Positions 2 through 6,399 of a stretch of 6,399 nt of DNA are shown in pieces (the first letter of the stretch is position 1; each line of letters begins with the position of its first letter). The DNA is from Waddliaceae bacterium (GTDB lineage Bacteria > Chlamydiota > Chlamydiia > Chlamydiales > GCA-2709385), in the NCBI GenBank assembly GCA_002709385.1, contig PAQS01000001.1:40681-47079 (forward strand), in the 5' to 3' direction. The notes below the pieces were generated by a model. The model was not told where the DNA came from. It saw nothing but the letters and a program-made list of their open reading frames with translations, and searched no databases. The position numbers and the translations under genes are program-made.

Positions 2-271
2 CAATGGCTTCGTCAGCAGCTTCTCAAGCAGGGCTTTTTCCCGGCAATACCTTATAGACAACTTAAAAATCCCAGTGAAACCCGTCCCAAATTTAGCCAA
101 GTGAAAGCCTTTTTCAATATCTCATCACGTCGATGGGTAGTGGAACGTACGTTTTCGTGGATCAAGCGTCAGTCTCGTCGCTTGCTTTTACGTTGGGAAA
201 GAACGCAAAAAGCTTGGGAAGCGGTACTAAAAATGGGAATTATTCGATACTGGATTAGAAATTTATTTTGA
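2..271 (+). CDS. IS5-superfamily transposase, C-terminal part (5' end outside the window)
   Basis: This frame is open from the left edge and ends at TGA 269-271, giving 89 residues of a DDE transposase, the enzyme that cuts and moves an insertion sequence. The segment RWVVERTFSWIKRQSRRLLL (visible residues 44-63) fits the C1 signature of the IS4/IS5 superfamily: R44, three residues, then the likely catalytic glutamate E48, then six residues, then K55. The ending MGIIRYWIRNLF is also typical of the IS5 group (IS427/IS1031-like, from memory). The upstream aspartates must lie outside the window, so I cannot tell whether the element is intact. No start codon is visible. It runs towards the minus-strand partition operon and stops 146 bp before that operon's last stop codon, so it does not break it. 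The family call is secure; the subgroup is less so. Confidence 0.87.
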   Translation, partial: QWLRQQLLKQGFFPAIPYRQLKNPSETRPKFSQVKAFFNISSRRWVVERTFSWIKRQSRRLLLRWERTQKAWEAVLKMGIIRYWIRNLF

Positions 272-779: not shown

Positions 780-1535
780 CTAATTCCTTCCAACAAATTC
801 TTTCGCCAGGCTTCGGTAGTCTTGTGCTCCTGGACTTTTTGAGTCATACATAGTGATTGGGATGCCAAATGAAGGACATTCCGCAAGTTTTACTGTTTCT
901 CTAATGCAGGACTTGTAGACCTTGCCATTGAAGCGCTTCTTTAAGTCATCGATGATGTCCAAAGATAACCTAGTCCTCTTGTCCACCCTGCAAGGAACAA
1001 TCCCGTTGATTTCTAGATTTGGGTTTAGCCTCTCTTTCACAGTATCAATTGTTCTCAGAAGCTGGGCTAGACCATCCAAGGCCATTACCCTTGTCTCTAA
1101 GGGAACCAATACCTCGTCTGCAGCTACGAGTGCATTTAGAGACAGGATACCAAGAGCTGGTGGGCAATCTATGAGAATATAATCCCAATTCGTGCTGATC
1201 TGTTTTAGCTGTCTACTTAGGATCGTTTCAGCTCCAACCTCTGATGCTAAGGCCTTCTCAATACCGATTAACCAAGGGCTGGAAGGAATTATGCTTAAAC
1301 CAGAAATACCTGTCTCAATGATTTTATCAGAAATACTGGTATTTTCAGCAAAAACATCATATAAACCTTTTTTAGTATTTGATGCTTTTAACCATTTAGA
1401 TGAAGATCCTTGAGGGTCAACATCTATCAAAAGGATTTTTTTTCCACTTTCAACAAGAGCAGCCCCAAGGTTCACAGCTGTTGTCGTCTTTGCAGACCCA
1501 CCCTTTTGGTTAACTATAGCTATAATCGTCATCAT
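780..1535 (-). CDS. parA: ParA-family partition ATPase (pGP5-type)
   Basis: A 251-residue MinD/ParA-type ATPase that would drive segregation of the replicon by ATP-dependent dimerisation on nucleoid DNA. The deviant Walker A motif is NQKGGSAKTTT (residues 9-19), with signature lysine K11 and P-loop lysine K16. Walker A' is LLIDVDPQGS (35-44) and Walker B is YILIDCPP (119-126). There is no N-terminal helix-turn-helix extension, so it is the short (type Ib-like) form, which usually relies on a separate small regulator; two small genes precede it here. Two ATGs stand in tandem: AGGGGG lies 2 bases before the first and 5 before the second, so the second (start at 1532, giving MTIIAIVNQKGG) may be the real start. 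The start lies inside the end of the 57-residue gene, implying translational coupling. Chlamydial plasmids encode a ParA called pGP5; whether this is its orthologue needs a tree. Confidence 0.95.
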   Translation of the reverse strand: MMTIIAIVNQKGGSAKTTTAVNLGAALVESGKKILLIDVDPQGSSSKWLKASNTKKGLYDVFAENTSISDKIIETGISGLSIIPSSPWLIGIEKALASEVGAETILSRQLKQISTNWDYILIDCPPALGILSLNALVAADEVLVPLETRVMALDGLAQLLRTIDTVKERLNPNLEINGIVPCRVDKRTRLSLDIIDDLKKRFNGKVYKSCIRETVKLAECPSFGIPITMYDSKSPGAQDYRSLAKEFVGRN

Positions 1536-2004: not shown

Positions 2005-3009
2005 ATGAATGAAGGACCGCGCATGAATCTTCCAAAAAAAAATGATGAAGCTGCCCTTGAAGAGTACAAAAAGCAGCATTTAGAAGACTTCATGGAATAC
2101 ACCAAAAAATCCAAGTCCCCTAACTCTATCCGAGCATACAAGTTCGCTTGGACAAAGTTTAGCGACTGGTGCAGTGGCAGCGGATATAACCTATTGTTTC
2201 CTCCTGCAGAATCTTTTGAGCTCCTCATTGGTCTTTTCATCGCATCGATGGCCAAATCAAAAAATCTAAAACCGGCATCCCTGACAACTTACTTAGCAGG
2301 GATAAAGCATTTCTACTCCGAGAAGAATATTCGAGTAGACACGAAGCATGAAGAAATCCGTAAGGCAATGGCTGGAATTAGGAGAGAACTCGGAACCAAG
2401 CAAAATCGTAAGCTTCCTCTCACGACTGATAACATCAAACTTTTAATCGACTCGATTGGGAGAATAGTAAAACCAATTGAAAGCAGGGATAAAGCGATCA
2501 TTTTGATTGGATTCGCAGGAGCATTCAGGCGGTCTGAATTAGTGGGAATAGATCACGAACACCTTGAGTTTGGATCAGGAGGTGTTTCTATTTTCATTCC
2601 ATCCTCTAAAACAGACCAAGAAGGCGCTGGAAGGTTTGTAGATATCCCGTTTTCAGGTTCAGAAACCTACTGTCCAGTAAGAGCAATACAAGCGTGGATC
2701 ATGTGCAGCAAGTCCTCATCAGGCCCAGTTTTCCGATCCATCACAAAAGGCGGAAGGATAAAAGACAAAAGACTGGGAGATCGAGATATAGCCTATATGC
2801 TCAAAAAATACTGTAAGCCATTCGGGTTCTCAGATCAGATTGCTGGACACAGCTTAAGAGCAGGACATGTGACATCTTCTATCAAGATGGGGACACCTGA
2901 AACCTGGATAATGAGGCAAACGGGCCATACAAGCGTGGATACTCTTAGAAAGTACGAAAGACTACAACGAGAATTTGAAGCTAACTCAGCCGCTAAAATA
3001 GGGCTATAG
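2005..3009 (+). CDS. Tyrosine recombinase / phage-type integrase (pGP7/pGP8-like)
   Basis: A 334-residue site-specific recombinase with all catalytic residues visible. Residues about 25-130 form the SAM-like core-binding domain (NSIRAYKFAWTKFSDWC, then SLTTYLAGIKHFY). The catalytic domain holds R175 (FRRSEL), K202 (SSKTD), H282 and R285 (GHSLRAG), H308 (QTGHTS) and the nucleophile Y317 (LRKYERL). It should therefore be active in cutting and rejoining DNA, either to resolve plasmid multimers or to integrate the element. The genus Chlamydia plasmid carries two such proteins, pGP7 and pGP8, with pGP8 just upstream of the helicase gene; this one occupies that position with one extra gene in between. 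It is the first gene of the plus-strand operon. An alternative start at 2023 would remove six residues. The family is certain; orthology to pGP8 rather than pGP7 rests on position. Confidence 0.93.
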   Translation: MNEGPRMNLPKKNDEAALEEYKKQHLEDFMEYTKKSKSPNSIRAYKFAWTKFSDWCSGSGYNLLFPPAESFELLIGLFIASMAKSKNLKPASLTTYLAGIKHFYSEKNIRVDTKHEEIRKAMAGIRRELGTKQNRKLPLTTDNIKLLIDSIGRIVKPIESRDKAIILIGFAGAFRRSELVGIDHEHLEFGSGGVSIFIPSSKTDQEGAGRFVDIPFSGSETYCPVRAIQAWIMCSKSSSGPVFRSITKGGRIKDKRLGDRDIAYMLKKYCKPFGFSDQIAGHSLRAGHVTSSIKMGTPETWIMRQTGHTSVDTLRKYERLQREFEANSAAKIGL

Positions 3010-3016
3010 GGGGAAC

Positions 3017-4063
3017 ATGTCCAATAGGGAGGAAGGTAAGTTTCAACTTACCAAAGGGTACAAAGATCTACTGACTGAAATTAAAGAAACTATTAAGACA
3101 TCTCGTCTTAAAGCTGCAATTTCTGTAAATCAGGGCTTAATTCAGATGTACTGGGAAATAGGGGCATCTATCCTAAAAAAGCAGGAATCTGAGGGCTGGG
3201 GGGCTAAAACCATAGAAAAGCTGGCCTCAGACATCAAATCTTCTTTTAAAGATATGAAAGGATTCTCGCATCGAAATCTCAAGTATATGGTTCATTTTGC
3301 TAAAGAATACCCAGACTTCCCAATTGGGCAACAGCTTGTTGCCCAAATTCCCTGGGGACATAACATACTCATATTGCAGAAAGTTAAGATACAAGAAGCT
3401 AGGTTATGGTACGTTCAAAAAACCATAGAAAACGGGTGGAGCAGGAACGTTTTACAGCACTGGATCGATAGCGACCTCTATCAAAGAGAAGGAAAAGCTT
3501 TAACGAACTTCAGCAAAACCTTGCCAGCACCCCAATCGGACCTGGCAACACAAACCCTCAAAGATCCGTATTGCTTCGACTTTCTAACTTTAAGAGAACA
3601 ATTCGATGAAAAAGAGTTAGAGGATGGGCTGCTTGACCACCTTCAGAAGTTTCTCATGGAACTCGGACAGGGATTTGCGTTCATAGGGAGACAGTACCCT
3701 TTAACGATCGAGGGAGACACCTCTTACCTAGACTTACTGTTCTACCACACCAGACTTCACTGCTATGTAGTGGTAGAGCTCAAGGCTGGAGCTTTTGACC
3801 CAAGAGACGCTGGGCAAATGAATTTCTACTTAAGTGCCGTGGATGACATGCTCAAAACAGACCATGACAATCCAACCCTCGGGCTTCTTCTCTGCAAAGG
3901 AAAGAAAGGATTAAAAGTAGAATATGCTCTACGCGACATAAGGAAGCCAATTGGAGTGGCCGAATACGAAACAAAAATTATTGAATCCCTTCCAGACGAC
4001 CTCAAAGGATCACTACCAACTATTGAGGAGTTGGAACTAGAGTTTGAAGAGGAACAAGAATGA
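3017..4063 (+). CDS. DUF1016/YhcG-family PDDEXK nuclease
   Basis: A 348-residue, apparently full-length member of the YhcG/DUF1016 family. The N-terminal domain (about 15-160) includes the family-typical stretches LIQMYWEIG (41-49), GWGAKTIEKLASD (60-72), FSHRNLKYM (83-91) and the PWGHN motif (112-116). The C-terminal nuclease domain carries D239 (SYLDLLFYH), E254 and K256 (VELK) and Q267 (GQMNFYL), the expected PD-(D/E)XK metal and catalytic positions. It is thus probably catalytically competent, acting on DNA or another nucleic acid; the physiological substrate of this family is not settled as far as I know. The start is 7 bp after the integrase stop with AGGGGG overlapping that stop codon, and the end overlaps the helicase start as ATGA. 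It is therefore embedded in the replication operon. Its base composition looks a little less A-rich than the last gene of the window, which may hint at separate acquisition. Confidence 0.92.
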   Translation: MSNREEGKFQLTKGYKDLLTEIKETIKTSRLKAAISVNQGLIQMYWEIGASILKKQESEGWGAKTIEKLASDIKSSFKDMKGFSHRNLKYMVHFAKEYPDFPIGQQLVAQIPWGHNILILQKVKIQEARLWYVQKTIENGWSRNVLQHWIDSDLYQREGKALTNFSKTLPAPQSDLATQTLKDPYCFDFLTLREQFDEKELEDGLLDHLQKFLMELGQGFAFIGRQYPLTIEGDTSYLDLLFYHTRLHCYVVVELKAGAFDPRDAGQMNFYLSAVDDMLKTDHDNPTLGLLLCKGKKGLKVEYALRDIRKPIGVAEYETKIIESLPDDLKGSLPTIEELELEFEEEQE

Positions 4064-5445
4064 CATCAAAAACACAAGAGCTCCCTTACTCCAAAGAATC
4101 TGAAATGATGGTTTTAGGGTGCATGCTTTCAAACATAAATCACCTACATGTATCTCTAGCGACCTTGTATGAAGACGACTTCTTCTTTCCGCAGCATAAA
4201 AAAATATTTAAAACTATAAACAAGCTCCATCGGGAATCTAGTGTTCAGATCGATTTGCATATCGTATGTGAAGAATTAAAAAAAACAGAAGAACTGAGCT
4301 CCGTAGGAGGGCCTGAATATCTTATGGCCCTGGCTCAATTTGCAGGGACATCAGCCTATATAGAAGAATATTGTGACCTTCTAAAGGATAGTTCTCACCA
4401 ACGACAGACTATATACCTGTTGAATGAGACACAAAAAAAGCTTCTTGAAAATCCCAAAAGTCACAAGGAATTAAAAGAAAAATTTTTCCAGCAGTTCATC
4501 GATCTAGATAAGAAGTATTCTCCAAATGACAAAGCTTCCATTGGTGAAATTTTATCAGGGAGTAAATCACGAATAGAACCCACCCCCATAATAGAAAGAA
4601 TCCAATCAAGAAAGTTATTTTTCGAAAATAATGGAAAACAATTTATGACTGGAATACCAACCGGTTTTCTAGACTTTGATAAAAAAGCCACAATACTTGA
4701 AGACACCAACCTAATTTATGTAGCGGCACGACCAGCTATGGGAAAAACTTCTTTTGTTATGAATGTACTATCTCATATTTGTTTTGACCAAAACCTACCT
4801 GTAGGGTTCATCTCTTTAGAAATGGGTGCGGACCAACTTGCAGAAAGACTGCTATCTATGCAAACGGGTATCTCAGGCGAAAAAATAAAAAGAGGCACTC
4901 TTAGTGATGATGAAATAAAAAGGCTAATCGAAAAAGAAAAAGCTCTACGAAATTCAAACTTCTTCATTCATGACCAAGCTGTTTCTACAGTTTCCCAAGT
5001 AGTTTCTAGAGCAAGAAGGCTTAAGGACGAAGAAGACATTCGCATACTCGGCATAGACTACCTTCAATTACTCGGAATAGATGGGAGAAGTGACAGCAGG
5101 CAATATGAAGTAGCCGAGGTCTCTAGAACACTAAAACGCCTAGCAATGGAGCTAAGGATTCCCGTAATTGCCATCTCACAGCTATCCAGAAAAGTTGAAG
5201 ATCGAACGGATAAAACACCAAATATGAGTGATTTAAGAGACAGTGGCCAAATAGAGCAAGATGCAGATGCTATCTTATTTATTATGAGAAGAGACTACTA
5301 CGACCCAAATGACAAACCTGGACAAGCACAAATCTTTCTAAAGAAAAATAGACACGGTCCGGAAGCTACCACAAGTTTAAGTTTTAGTTCAGAAAGTGGG
5401 TCATTTAAAAACTTGTCAAATATCGAACTTCCTACGGAGTGGTAA
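4060..5445 (+). CDS. DnaB-family replicative helicase (pGP1-type)
   Basis: A 461-residue hexameric helicase, close to the length I recall for chlamydial pGP1 (about 450). The N-terminal DnaB domain spans about 8-110 (SKESEMMVLGCML; FFFPQHKKIF; SSVGGPEYL), followed by a linker. The RecA-like motor domain starts near 195 (MTGIPTGFLDFD). Walker A is ARPAMGKTS (223-231, K229), the catalytic glutamate is E254 in SLEM, Walker B is ILGIDYLQLL (329-338, D333), and DLRDSGQIEQDAD (391-403) is followed by K429 and the arginine finger R431 in KKNRHGP. All motor motifs are intact, so it should unwind plasmid DNA 5' to 3'. No separate initiator gene is visible in the window. It shares ATGA with the preceding nuclease gene, with GAGG seven bases upstream of its ATG, and TAATG with the following pGP2-like gene. 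Confidence 0.95.
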   Translation: MTSKTQELPYSKESEMMVLGCMLSNINHLHVSLATLYEDDFFFPQHKKIFKTINKLHRESSVQIDLHIVCEELKKTEELSSVGGPEYLMALAQFAGTSAYIEEYCDLLKDSSHQRQTIYLLNETQKKLLENPKSHKELKEKFFQQFIDLDKKYSPNDKASIGEILSGSKSRIEPTPIIERIQSRKLFFENNGKQFMTGIPTGFLDFDKKATILEDTNLIYVAARPAMGKTSFVMNVLSHICFDQNLPVGFISLEMGADQLAERLLSMQTGISGEKIKRGTLSDDEIKRLIEKEKALRNSNFFIHDQAVSTVSQVVSRARRLKDEEDIRILGIDYLQLLGIDGRSDSRQYEVAEVSRTLKRLAMELRIPVIAISQLSRKVEDRTDKTPNMSDLRDSGQIEQDADAILFIMRRDYYDPNDKPGQAQIFLKKNRHGPEATTSLSFSSESGSFKNLSNIELPTEW

Positions 5446-6399
5446 TGTCATTAAAATCACTAAATCTAGAAGTTCACTATGAGAAAGCCATAGAATCTAT
5501 AAAAAATTTTCTGTGTATAATTCCAGAAAGCGAAAGAGAAGAAATTTGGACTAGTTTCGCAAAACAATTTTTCCAGTCTCTTATATTGAACGCTACGATC
5601 AATCTAAAAAAAGCTATCGAAGACCCAAATTTTCCTGAAATCAATAAGAATGAGCCTTTCATCGAAACGAGCTACCCAGTCTCTAAAAAATGGAGTGAAT
5701 TAGGTTCAGAGATAGAAGAAGAAATTCACCCTATATTAAATAAAAAAAGAATCAAACTAAACTCCAACGAGGAAAAAATACTAAATATCATCAACTCACA
5801 TAGGATGATAACAGTAGACAAAGACTTCGAGTTTGAAATACCAAAAGAATACCTCCCAAATGAAGAAATTTGCAGCAACAAAACACCAAAAATCTTCAAT
5901 GAGACAAAAACTCCTTTTTTAAGGATACACTTTAAAGGATCTTTTGAATCAACAAACCCTATGAATTTTGAAGGTGTAATATACATTATCATCACCTCTC
6001 TATTAGCTATAAAATCAACAGATGAAGTGAAATTCCCTATATTTGTTGGTTTAACCACAAAAAAAAATGCTCATGAAAAATTCAACAAATCACAACAAAA
6101 AGCATTTTGGAAGCGATTAATACAATTAATCGAAGGGGAAACTGTTTTAACAACTCCCCTCAAAGAACCAACACGAGACCTATCACCTCCAAAATTTCCT
6201 CTTATAAAAAGCCCCATGCACTTAGAGAGCTTAAAAAGAGGAAAAAGGCCTGATTACCAATCACCAATTCCTTTATCTCTACAATCACAAGTAGATGTAA
6301 TAGGGCTCAACCTAGATAAGAAACACTACCATGCACTAAACGCCGTACAACAGCTCCTATGTGACACCAATTACAAAGGAAATGTTAGAGGAACCACTC
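5445..6399 (+). CDS. pGP2-like chlamydial plasmid protein with a long N-terminal extension (3' end outside the window)
   Basis: An uninterrupted frame of 318 codons from the ATG at 5445 to the right edge, with no stop. The start overlaps the helicase stop (TAATG), and GGAG lies five bases before it. Residues 254-318 strongly resemble, from memory, the extreme N-terminus of the chlamydial plasmid protein pGP2-D: IKSPMHLE (254-261; recalled IKSPIHLE), VDVIGLNL (283-290), HYHALNAVQQLL (294-305) and TNYKGN (308-313). In pGP2-D this block begins near residue 10, so about 245 residues here are extra. That region is A-rich, lysine- and glutamate-rich, mostly helical by eye in the first 60 residues, and includes a hydrophobic stretch GVIYIIITSLLAI (177-189) that looks more like buried strand and helix than a membrane span. 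I recognise no domain in it. The molecular function of pGP2 is unknown; its conserved place after the helicase suggests a part in plasmid maintenance. Confidence 0.85.
   Translation, partial: MSLKSLNLEVHYEKAIESIKNFLCIIPESEREEIWTSFAKQFFQSLILNATINLKKAIEDPNFPEINKNEPFIETSYPVSKKWSELGSEIEEEIHPILNKKRIKLNSNEEKILNIINSHRMITVDKDFEFEIPKEYLPNEEICSNKTPKIFNETKTPFLRIHFKGSFESTNPMNFEGVIYIIITSLLAIKSTDEVKFPIFVGLTTKKNAHEKFNKSQQKAFWKRLIQLIEGETVLTTPLKEPTRDLSPPKFPLIKSPMHLESLKRGKRPDYQSPIPLSLQSQVDVIGLNLDKKHYHALNAVQQLLCDTNYKGNVRGTT

Follow-up and report, generated by a model that had tools for sequence, protein, structure and literature searches.

The pgp2 gene of this chlamydial replicon encodes a long form of Pgp2, the proposed iteron initiator of chlamydial plasmids. 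What is new is a real, previously undescribed N-terminal domain; the kind of initiator that bears it is known. The long form is probably ancestral, with its accessory domain later lost in Chlamydia and its sister genus Chlamydiifrater. In the proposed explanation, the C-terminal 330 residues would bind the array of 22-bp iterons found shortly 3' of the gene and, with the DnaB helicase encoded by the preceding, translationally adjacent gene, would initiate replication of the plasmid. The ~245 residues at the N-terminus would be an accessory domain present in the ancestor of the G000 plasmid lineage and the Chlamydiaceae plasmids. Clavichlamydia would have kept this domain, and Chlamydia and Chlamydiifrater would have lost it through a single in-frame deletion sparing both the core and the coupled start codon.

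The window is the whole stretch of DNA that was analyzed, 6,399 nucleotides in length (G000:C1:40681-47079). G000 is a chlamydial genome of 3.15 Mb that is 97% complete and sits in a family other than Chlamydiaceae. The comparison set comprised 232 Chlamydiota genomes. The features of the replicon are listed in Table 1.

Table 1. Features of the long pgp2 replicon, in window positions
Feature	Position	Strand	Details
ParA (Pgp5 counterpart)	780..1535	-	AAA_31 2.6e-58
Tyrosine recombinase (Pgp7/8 counterpart)	2005..3009	+	Phage_integrase 8e-16
Plasmid DnaB helicase (Pgp1 counterpart), upstream partner of pgp2	4060..5445	+	DnaB_C 9e-87; DnaB N 2.7e-24
Coupled start	5436..5447	+	GGAG 5436-5439; in-frame GTG 5439; dnaB stop TAA 5443-5445; ATG 5445-5447
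Long pgp2	5445..6399	+	first 318 of 579 codons; runs on to L002:11865 = G000:C1:47864
N-terminal extension of long Pgp2, residues 1 to ~244	5445..6176	+	no named family
Start of Pgp2 core (IKSPMHLE at 6204), predicted RepE/pi/RctB-type initiator	6177..6399	+	

The reading frame of long pgp2 is sound. As the original prediction had it, the start is coupled to the end of the helicase gene, with the ATG overlapping the dnaB stop codon and a GGAG site just ahead of it. The frame is open past the window end and reaches its stop in the contig; one ambiguous base (N) lies at position 6400, just past the window. The first 252 codons are stop-free, a length not reached in any of 5,000 Markov shuffles of the same DNA, and codon usage in the extension is close to that of dnaB (r = 0.80) and of the core (r = 0.74). 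The extension is continuous, as had been claimed, and coding-like in its codon use. After residue 1, in-frame ATG, GTG, or TTG codons occur only at residues 48, 121, 173, 195, and 258. Because none falls within residues 196-257, a classical Pgp2 start near residue 245 is impossible, and translation from near residue 250, which had been named as one of the findings that would overturn the prediction, is ruled out. The in-frame GTG (MVMSLKS...) is located exactly where the Chlamydia ATG overlaps the end of dnaB and may be the true start of long pgp2.

A YhcG/DUF1016-type PDDEXK nuclease gene (window 3017-4063) separates the recombinase from dnaB, which it overlaps; in the Chlamydiifrater plasmid, dnaB directly follows the recombinase, without a gene between them. 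An IS transposase end with many ambiguous bases (window 2-271; L002:4135-4952) adjoins a tyrosine recombinase frame that is cut at L002:3520-4182, and an IS insertion beside the replicon is likely. A RES-domain frame (L002:12066-13001; E 9.5e-6), the toxin type of bacterial toxin-antitoxin pairs, is located 3' of the iterons. The same G000 contig is 60.6 kb long, and a comparison of its ends found no overlap. It encodes a second replication module (L004:1447-4112), composed of a further ParA and a distant, environmental-type Pgp2 relative that is 506 aa long and 26% identical to the core, and two plasmids may have joined as a co-integrate in this contig. It also carries F-type conjugation genes (L004:11343-19726 and L005:35-8958), which include TraE, TrbI-like TraB, thioredoxin-like, TraC, and TraU by Pfam and additional frames resembling TraN, TraF, TraH, TraG, and TraD.

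The C-terminal part of the protein is Pgp2. Residues 253-575 match Chlamydiifrater Pgp2 (51% identity, E 2e-101, tblastn against plasmids), and the placing of the start of Pgp2 similarity at IKSPMHLE, residue 254, was exact. The core is 53% identical to that of the Pgp2 encoded by genome G027 (E 3e-127). Among the 232 Chlamydiota genomes, it has matches in 16 Chlamydiaceae genomes at 44-52% identity, and weaker relatives elsewhere in the phylum reach 21-29%. Classical Pgp2 proteins are 338-354 aa long and begin 6-9 residues ahead of the IKSPMHLE block, where about 10 had been predicted. The G000 protein therefore has ~244 extra N-terminal residues, in agreement with the ~245 first proposed.

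Wan et al. (2025) proposed from modelling that Pgp2 is a replication initiator resembling pi, RepE, and RctB, and they showed that the beta-hairpin of C. trachomatis Pgp2 is required for plasmid transformation (PMC11895440). The original prediction's premise of a pGP2 without known function is therefore out of date. Our fold comparison used a G027 protein model (pLDDT of the core ~75 by blocks), and the VIA and Foldseek lists are of the core only. RctB is the top Foldseek match (E 3e-5), and the top matches of the two lists also include RepE (Z 8.9 over ~113 residues) and pi (Z 7.9). The structural match begins at G027 residue 217, where classical Pgp2 starts. At this moderate model confidence, the core is predicted to have a RepE/pi/RctB-like fold. 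The beta-hairpin motif is kept, and KHKTSRDKWEF of G000 aligns with YKTSRNKYEF. The core can be recognized as an initiator by its predicted fold, its dnaB operon, and its iterons, so Pgp2 function did not have to await the extension for a first clue, as the original prediction had suggested it might; the extension is an accessory domain on a recognizable initiator.

Similar proteins were found in two further settings. The cyanobacterial plasmid Geminocystis pGM01 (L038:1-3954) encodes a 343-aa Pgp2-like protein (28%, E 9e-12) 3' of a DnaB-like gene, so initiators of the Pgp2 type also occur outside Chlamydiota. Contig L007, which is assigned to an uncultured Clostridia genome, encodes a Pgp2 identical to that of the Chlamydiaceae genome G011, has the same iteron type, and is probably a mis-binned Chlamydia plasmid.

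The Chlamydia plasmid origin consists of four 22-bp iterons (PMC7143637, PMC7259575). In G000, four 22-bp repeats begin 19 bp 3' of the pgp2 stop and match at 98%. The pattern GTCTACC-N7-GTTGC at 22-bp spacing is present in 17 of the 232 Chlamydiota genomes, exactly the 17 that have a strong (close) Pgp2, and a reversed-pattern control of the motif was found in 0 of the 232. The iteron unit is GTCTACCGGGAAGTGTTGCAAG in G000, GTCTACCACCTTAAGTTGCAAA in G027, and GTCTACCACCTAAAGTTGCAGA in Chlamydiifrater. In a departure from Chlamydia, the G000 iterons directly follow pgp2; in the GTCTACC... reading, they share the strand of the gene, whereas those of Chlamydiifrater and G027 are on the opposite strand. 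The co-occurrence of this motif with Pgp2 is comparative support for the 2025 iteron-initiator proposal, and the iteron and initiator pair of Chlamydiaceae is now extended to a genome outside the family.

The extension matches no named domain. Against Pfam, NCBIfam, PHROGs, and PDB sequences it had chance-level matches only. A domain already named and present in homologues of this length across the phylum would have told against the original prediction. A tblastn search of plasmids and phages gave no useful match, and IMG/VR gave none. In the Geminocystis plasmid, a separate ORF lies between dnaB and the pgp2-like gene; it was considered as a fusion source and has no homology to the extension. 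The AlphaFold model of the extension has pLDDT mostly below 50 and no confident fold, and a comparison with RctB domain I rests on this same model.

One probable relative of the extension is found in G027. The G027 plasmid is an 8,040-bp contig, the size of the published plasmid of "Candidatus Clavichlamydia salmonicola", a fish-infecting relative (PMC10448858); G027 is probably this organism, given the length of its plasmid and its tree position. The main text of the Clavichlamydia paper makes no mention of an extension (PMC10448858). The G027 Pgp2 has 552-558 residues, and its extension, in the same position in the protein, is collinear with that of G000 over the whole length; the identity is 26%, and the alignment has long gaps (BLASTP E 0.006 as a single comparison). 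The local score of the pair is 82, compared to 36.8 +/- 6.0 for shuffles (z 7.5), with 0 of 1,000 shuffles as high, 0 of 4,000 when composition was kept in 20-residue windows, and 40 for the reversed sequence. Unrelated frames in loci that were not fetched by the extension do not exceed 59. Loci picked from the 232 genomes for likeness to the G000 extension score 69-83 (best 83 and 81). Such top scores are to be expected when a search is very large, and these loci were selected from whole genomes; G027 was not so selected. The secondary-structure strings of the two extensions agree at 67%, versus 40% when rotated, though they are not independent, as each sequence is in the other's alignment. 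Taken as sequences, the two extensions make homology probable rather than proven. A profile built from both of them found no third member in the 232 genomes. All Chlamydia and Chlamydiifrater Pgp2 proteins are without the extension, and other environmental relatives have 105-180 N-terminal residues with no detectable relation to it; the N-terminal segments of Simkania/Rhabdochlamydia-type proteins likewise have no homology to it. The long form is thus not universal across the phylum, and it is not unique to G000 either.

The junction with dnaB bears on how the long and short forms are related. The dnaB gene ends Trp-TAA in G000, in G027, and in all of the short Chlamydiaceae forms, and the NTG of the NTGGTAA junction is in frame with pgp2, as ATG in Chlamydia, GTG in G000, and TTG in G027. 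Because long and short forms have the same in-frame junction, they differ by an internal in-frame segment and not by a shifted start. In a core tree that includes Geminocystis, G000 branches first, followed by G027 and then the short forms (96/82 for G027 with the short forms, 95/95 for the short clade). When Geminocystis is left out, G000 branching first and a clade of G000 and G027 are not separable (p-AU 0.40). In the species tree, Clavichlamydia is the sister of Chlamydia and Chlamydiifrater (PMC10448858). Given both trees and the placement of G000 in another family, the simplest reading is one loss before Chlamydia and Chlamydiifrater. The evidence favours this in-frame internal loss, with the direction inferred from a rooting that is not decisive, and Chlamydia Pgp2 has probably been reduced to its short form. 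The original prediction had offered both a fusion onto pGP2 and a loss in the short Chlamydia form; the junction, the core tree, and the species tree support loss better than gain. A DnaB tree, built as a second witness for the direction of change, gave no resolved answer. There, the closest grouping of the G000 helicase is with the helicase of the Simkania plasmid (97/96), while in the core tree the G000 Pgp2 groups with Chlamydiaceae; the dnaB-pgp2 operon may be a mosaic, or this may be long-branch attraction.

Three other explanations for the long form were weighed. We consider it rather unlikely that the short form is ancestral and that the domain was gained by an in-frame insertion after the coupled start and ahead of the core, with long plasmids reaching the G000 and Clavichlamydia lineages. 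The environmental Pgp2 relatives and the Geminocystis protein are without this extension, the core tree is compatible with a single clade of G000 and G027, and an F-type T4SS on the G000 contig makes transfer plausible, as such a gain would have it. It would, however, need either transfer between families or two gains, since Clavichlamydia is inside Chlamydiaceae and G000 is not, and the full core tree sets G000 outside G027 and the short forms. Loss has its own weak point, as the extension is present in just two sequences, which are modestly similar. That modest similarity, with its long gaps and an E value of only 0.006, would also suit two unrelated, fast-changing extensions that arose separately in the same position, by acquisition or by growth, and the varied segments of the environmental relatives show that the N-terminal place tolerates different segments. 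Independent origins are improbable nonetheless, given 0 of 5,000 shuffles as good, the end-to-end collinearity, and a profile that matches just these two proteins in 232 genomes, though it was built from them. An artefact, in which a mis-called start, a frameshift, or an assembly join gives a falsely long Pgp2, could draw on the ambiguous base at position 6400 and those in the nearby IS copy. It is very hard to credit in view of the coding-like codon use, the absence of a usable start between residues 195 and 258, and the same arrangement in an independent genome (G027).

The iterons of G027 (long Pgp2) and Chlamydiifrater (short Pgp2) are identical at 20 of 22 positions, which suggests that the extension is probably not the iteron reader. 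Its pI is 6.1-6.6, neutral to acidic, versus 9.2-9.5 for the core, and between G000 and G027 it has kept 26% identity versus 53% for the core. A protein contact fits better than DNA reading because the iteron is near-constant and the extension is not basic and diverges much faster. The most likely role, though a speculative one, would be the recruitment of the neighbouring DnaB or Rep-Rep oligomerization for copy control, and as inferences these two are equally compatible with the data. RctB too has an additional N-terminal domain, domain I, in the same place relative to its RepE-like core. With RctB as the top structural match of the core, the extension could be a DNA-binding or origin-specific domain placed like domain I that adds origin contacts. 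This is doubtful, as the extension is not basic, the iteron is nearly the same with and without it, and it has no sequence match to any DNA-binding domain. Tentatively, the ancestral Chlamydiaceae initiator might have carried an undescribed domain that loaded or positioned its own DnaB, and the loss of this domain would mark a change in how replication starts or is limited. The long and short forms are a natural pair with almost the same iteron and are a means to ask what the extension does.

Among known systems, TrfA-44 of RK2 is also an iteron initiator with an optional N-terminal extension, and the long form of TrfA loads DnaB in Pseudomonas (PMC4980987). The comparison with G000 Pgp2 is by description rather than by sequence, and TrfA makes both forms, whereas G000 pgp2 has no internal start for a short form (residues 196-257). 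RctB of Vibrio chromosome 2, RepE of F, and pi of R6K share the predicted two-winged-helix initiator core, but G000 Pgp2 has no detectable sequence similarity to them. Chlamydia Pgp2 (pGP2-D; plasmid CDS4) shares the core sequence, the predicted fold, the beta-hairpin motif, the dnaB/Pgp1 operon, and the 22-bp iterons, and differs in being 338-354 rather than 579 aa long, without the ~244 extra N-terminal residues. The G027 plasmid has the full Chlamydiaceae gene set, and its extension is only 26% identical to that of G000, but its Pgp2 has the long form, a probably homologous extension, and the same iteron type.
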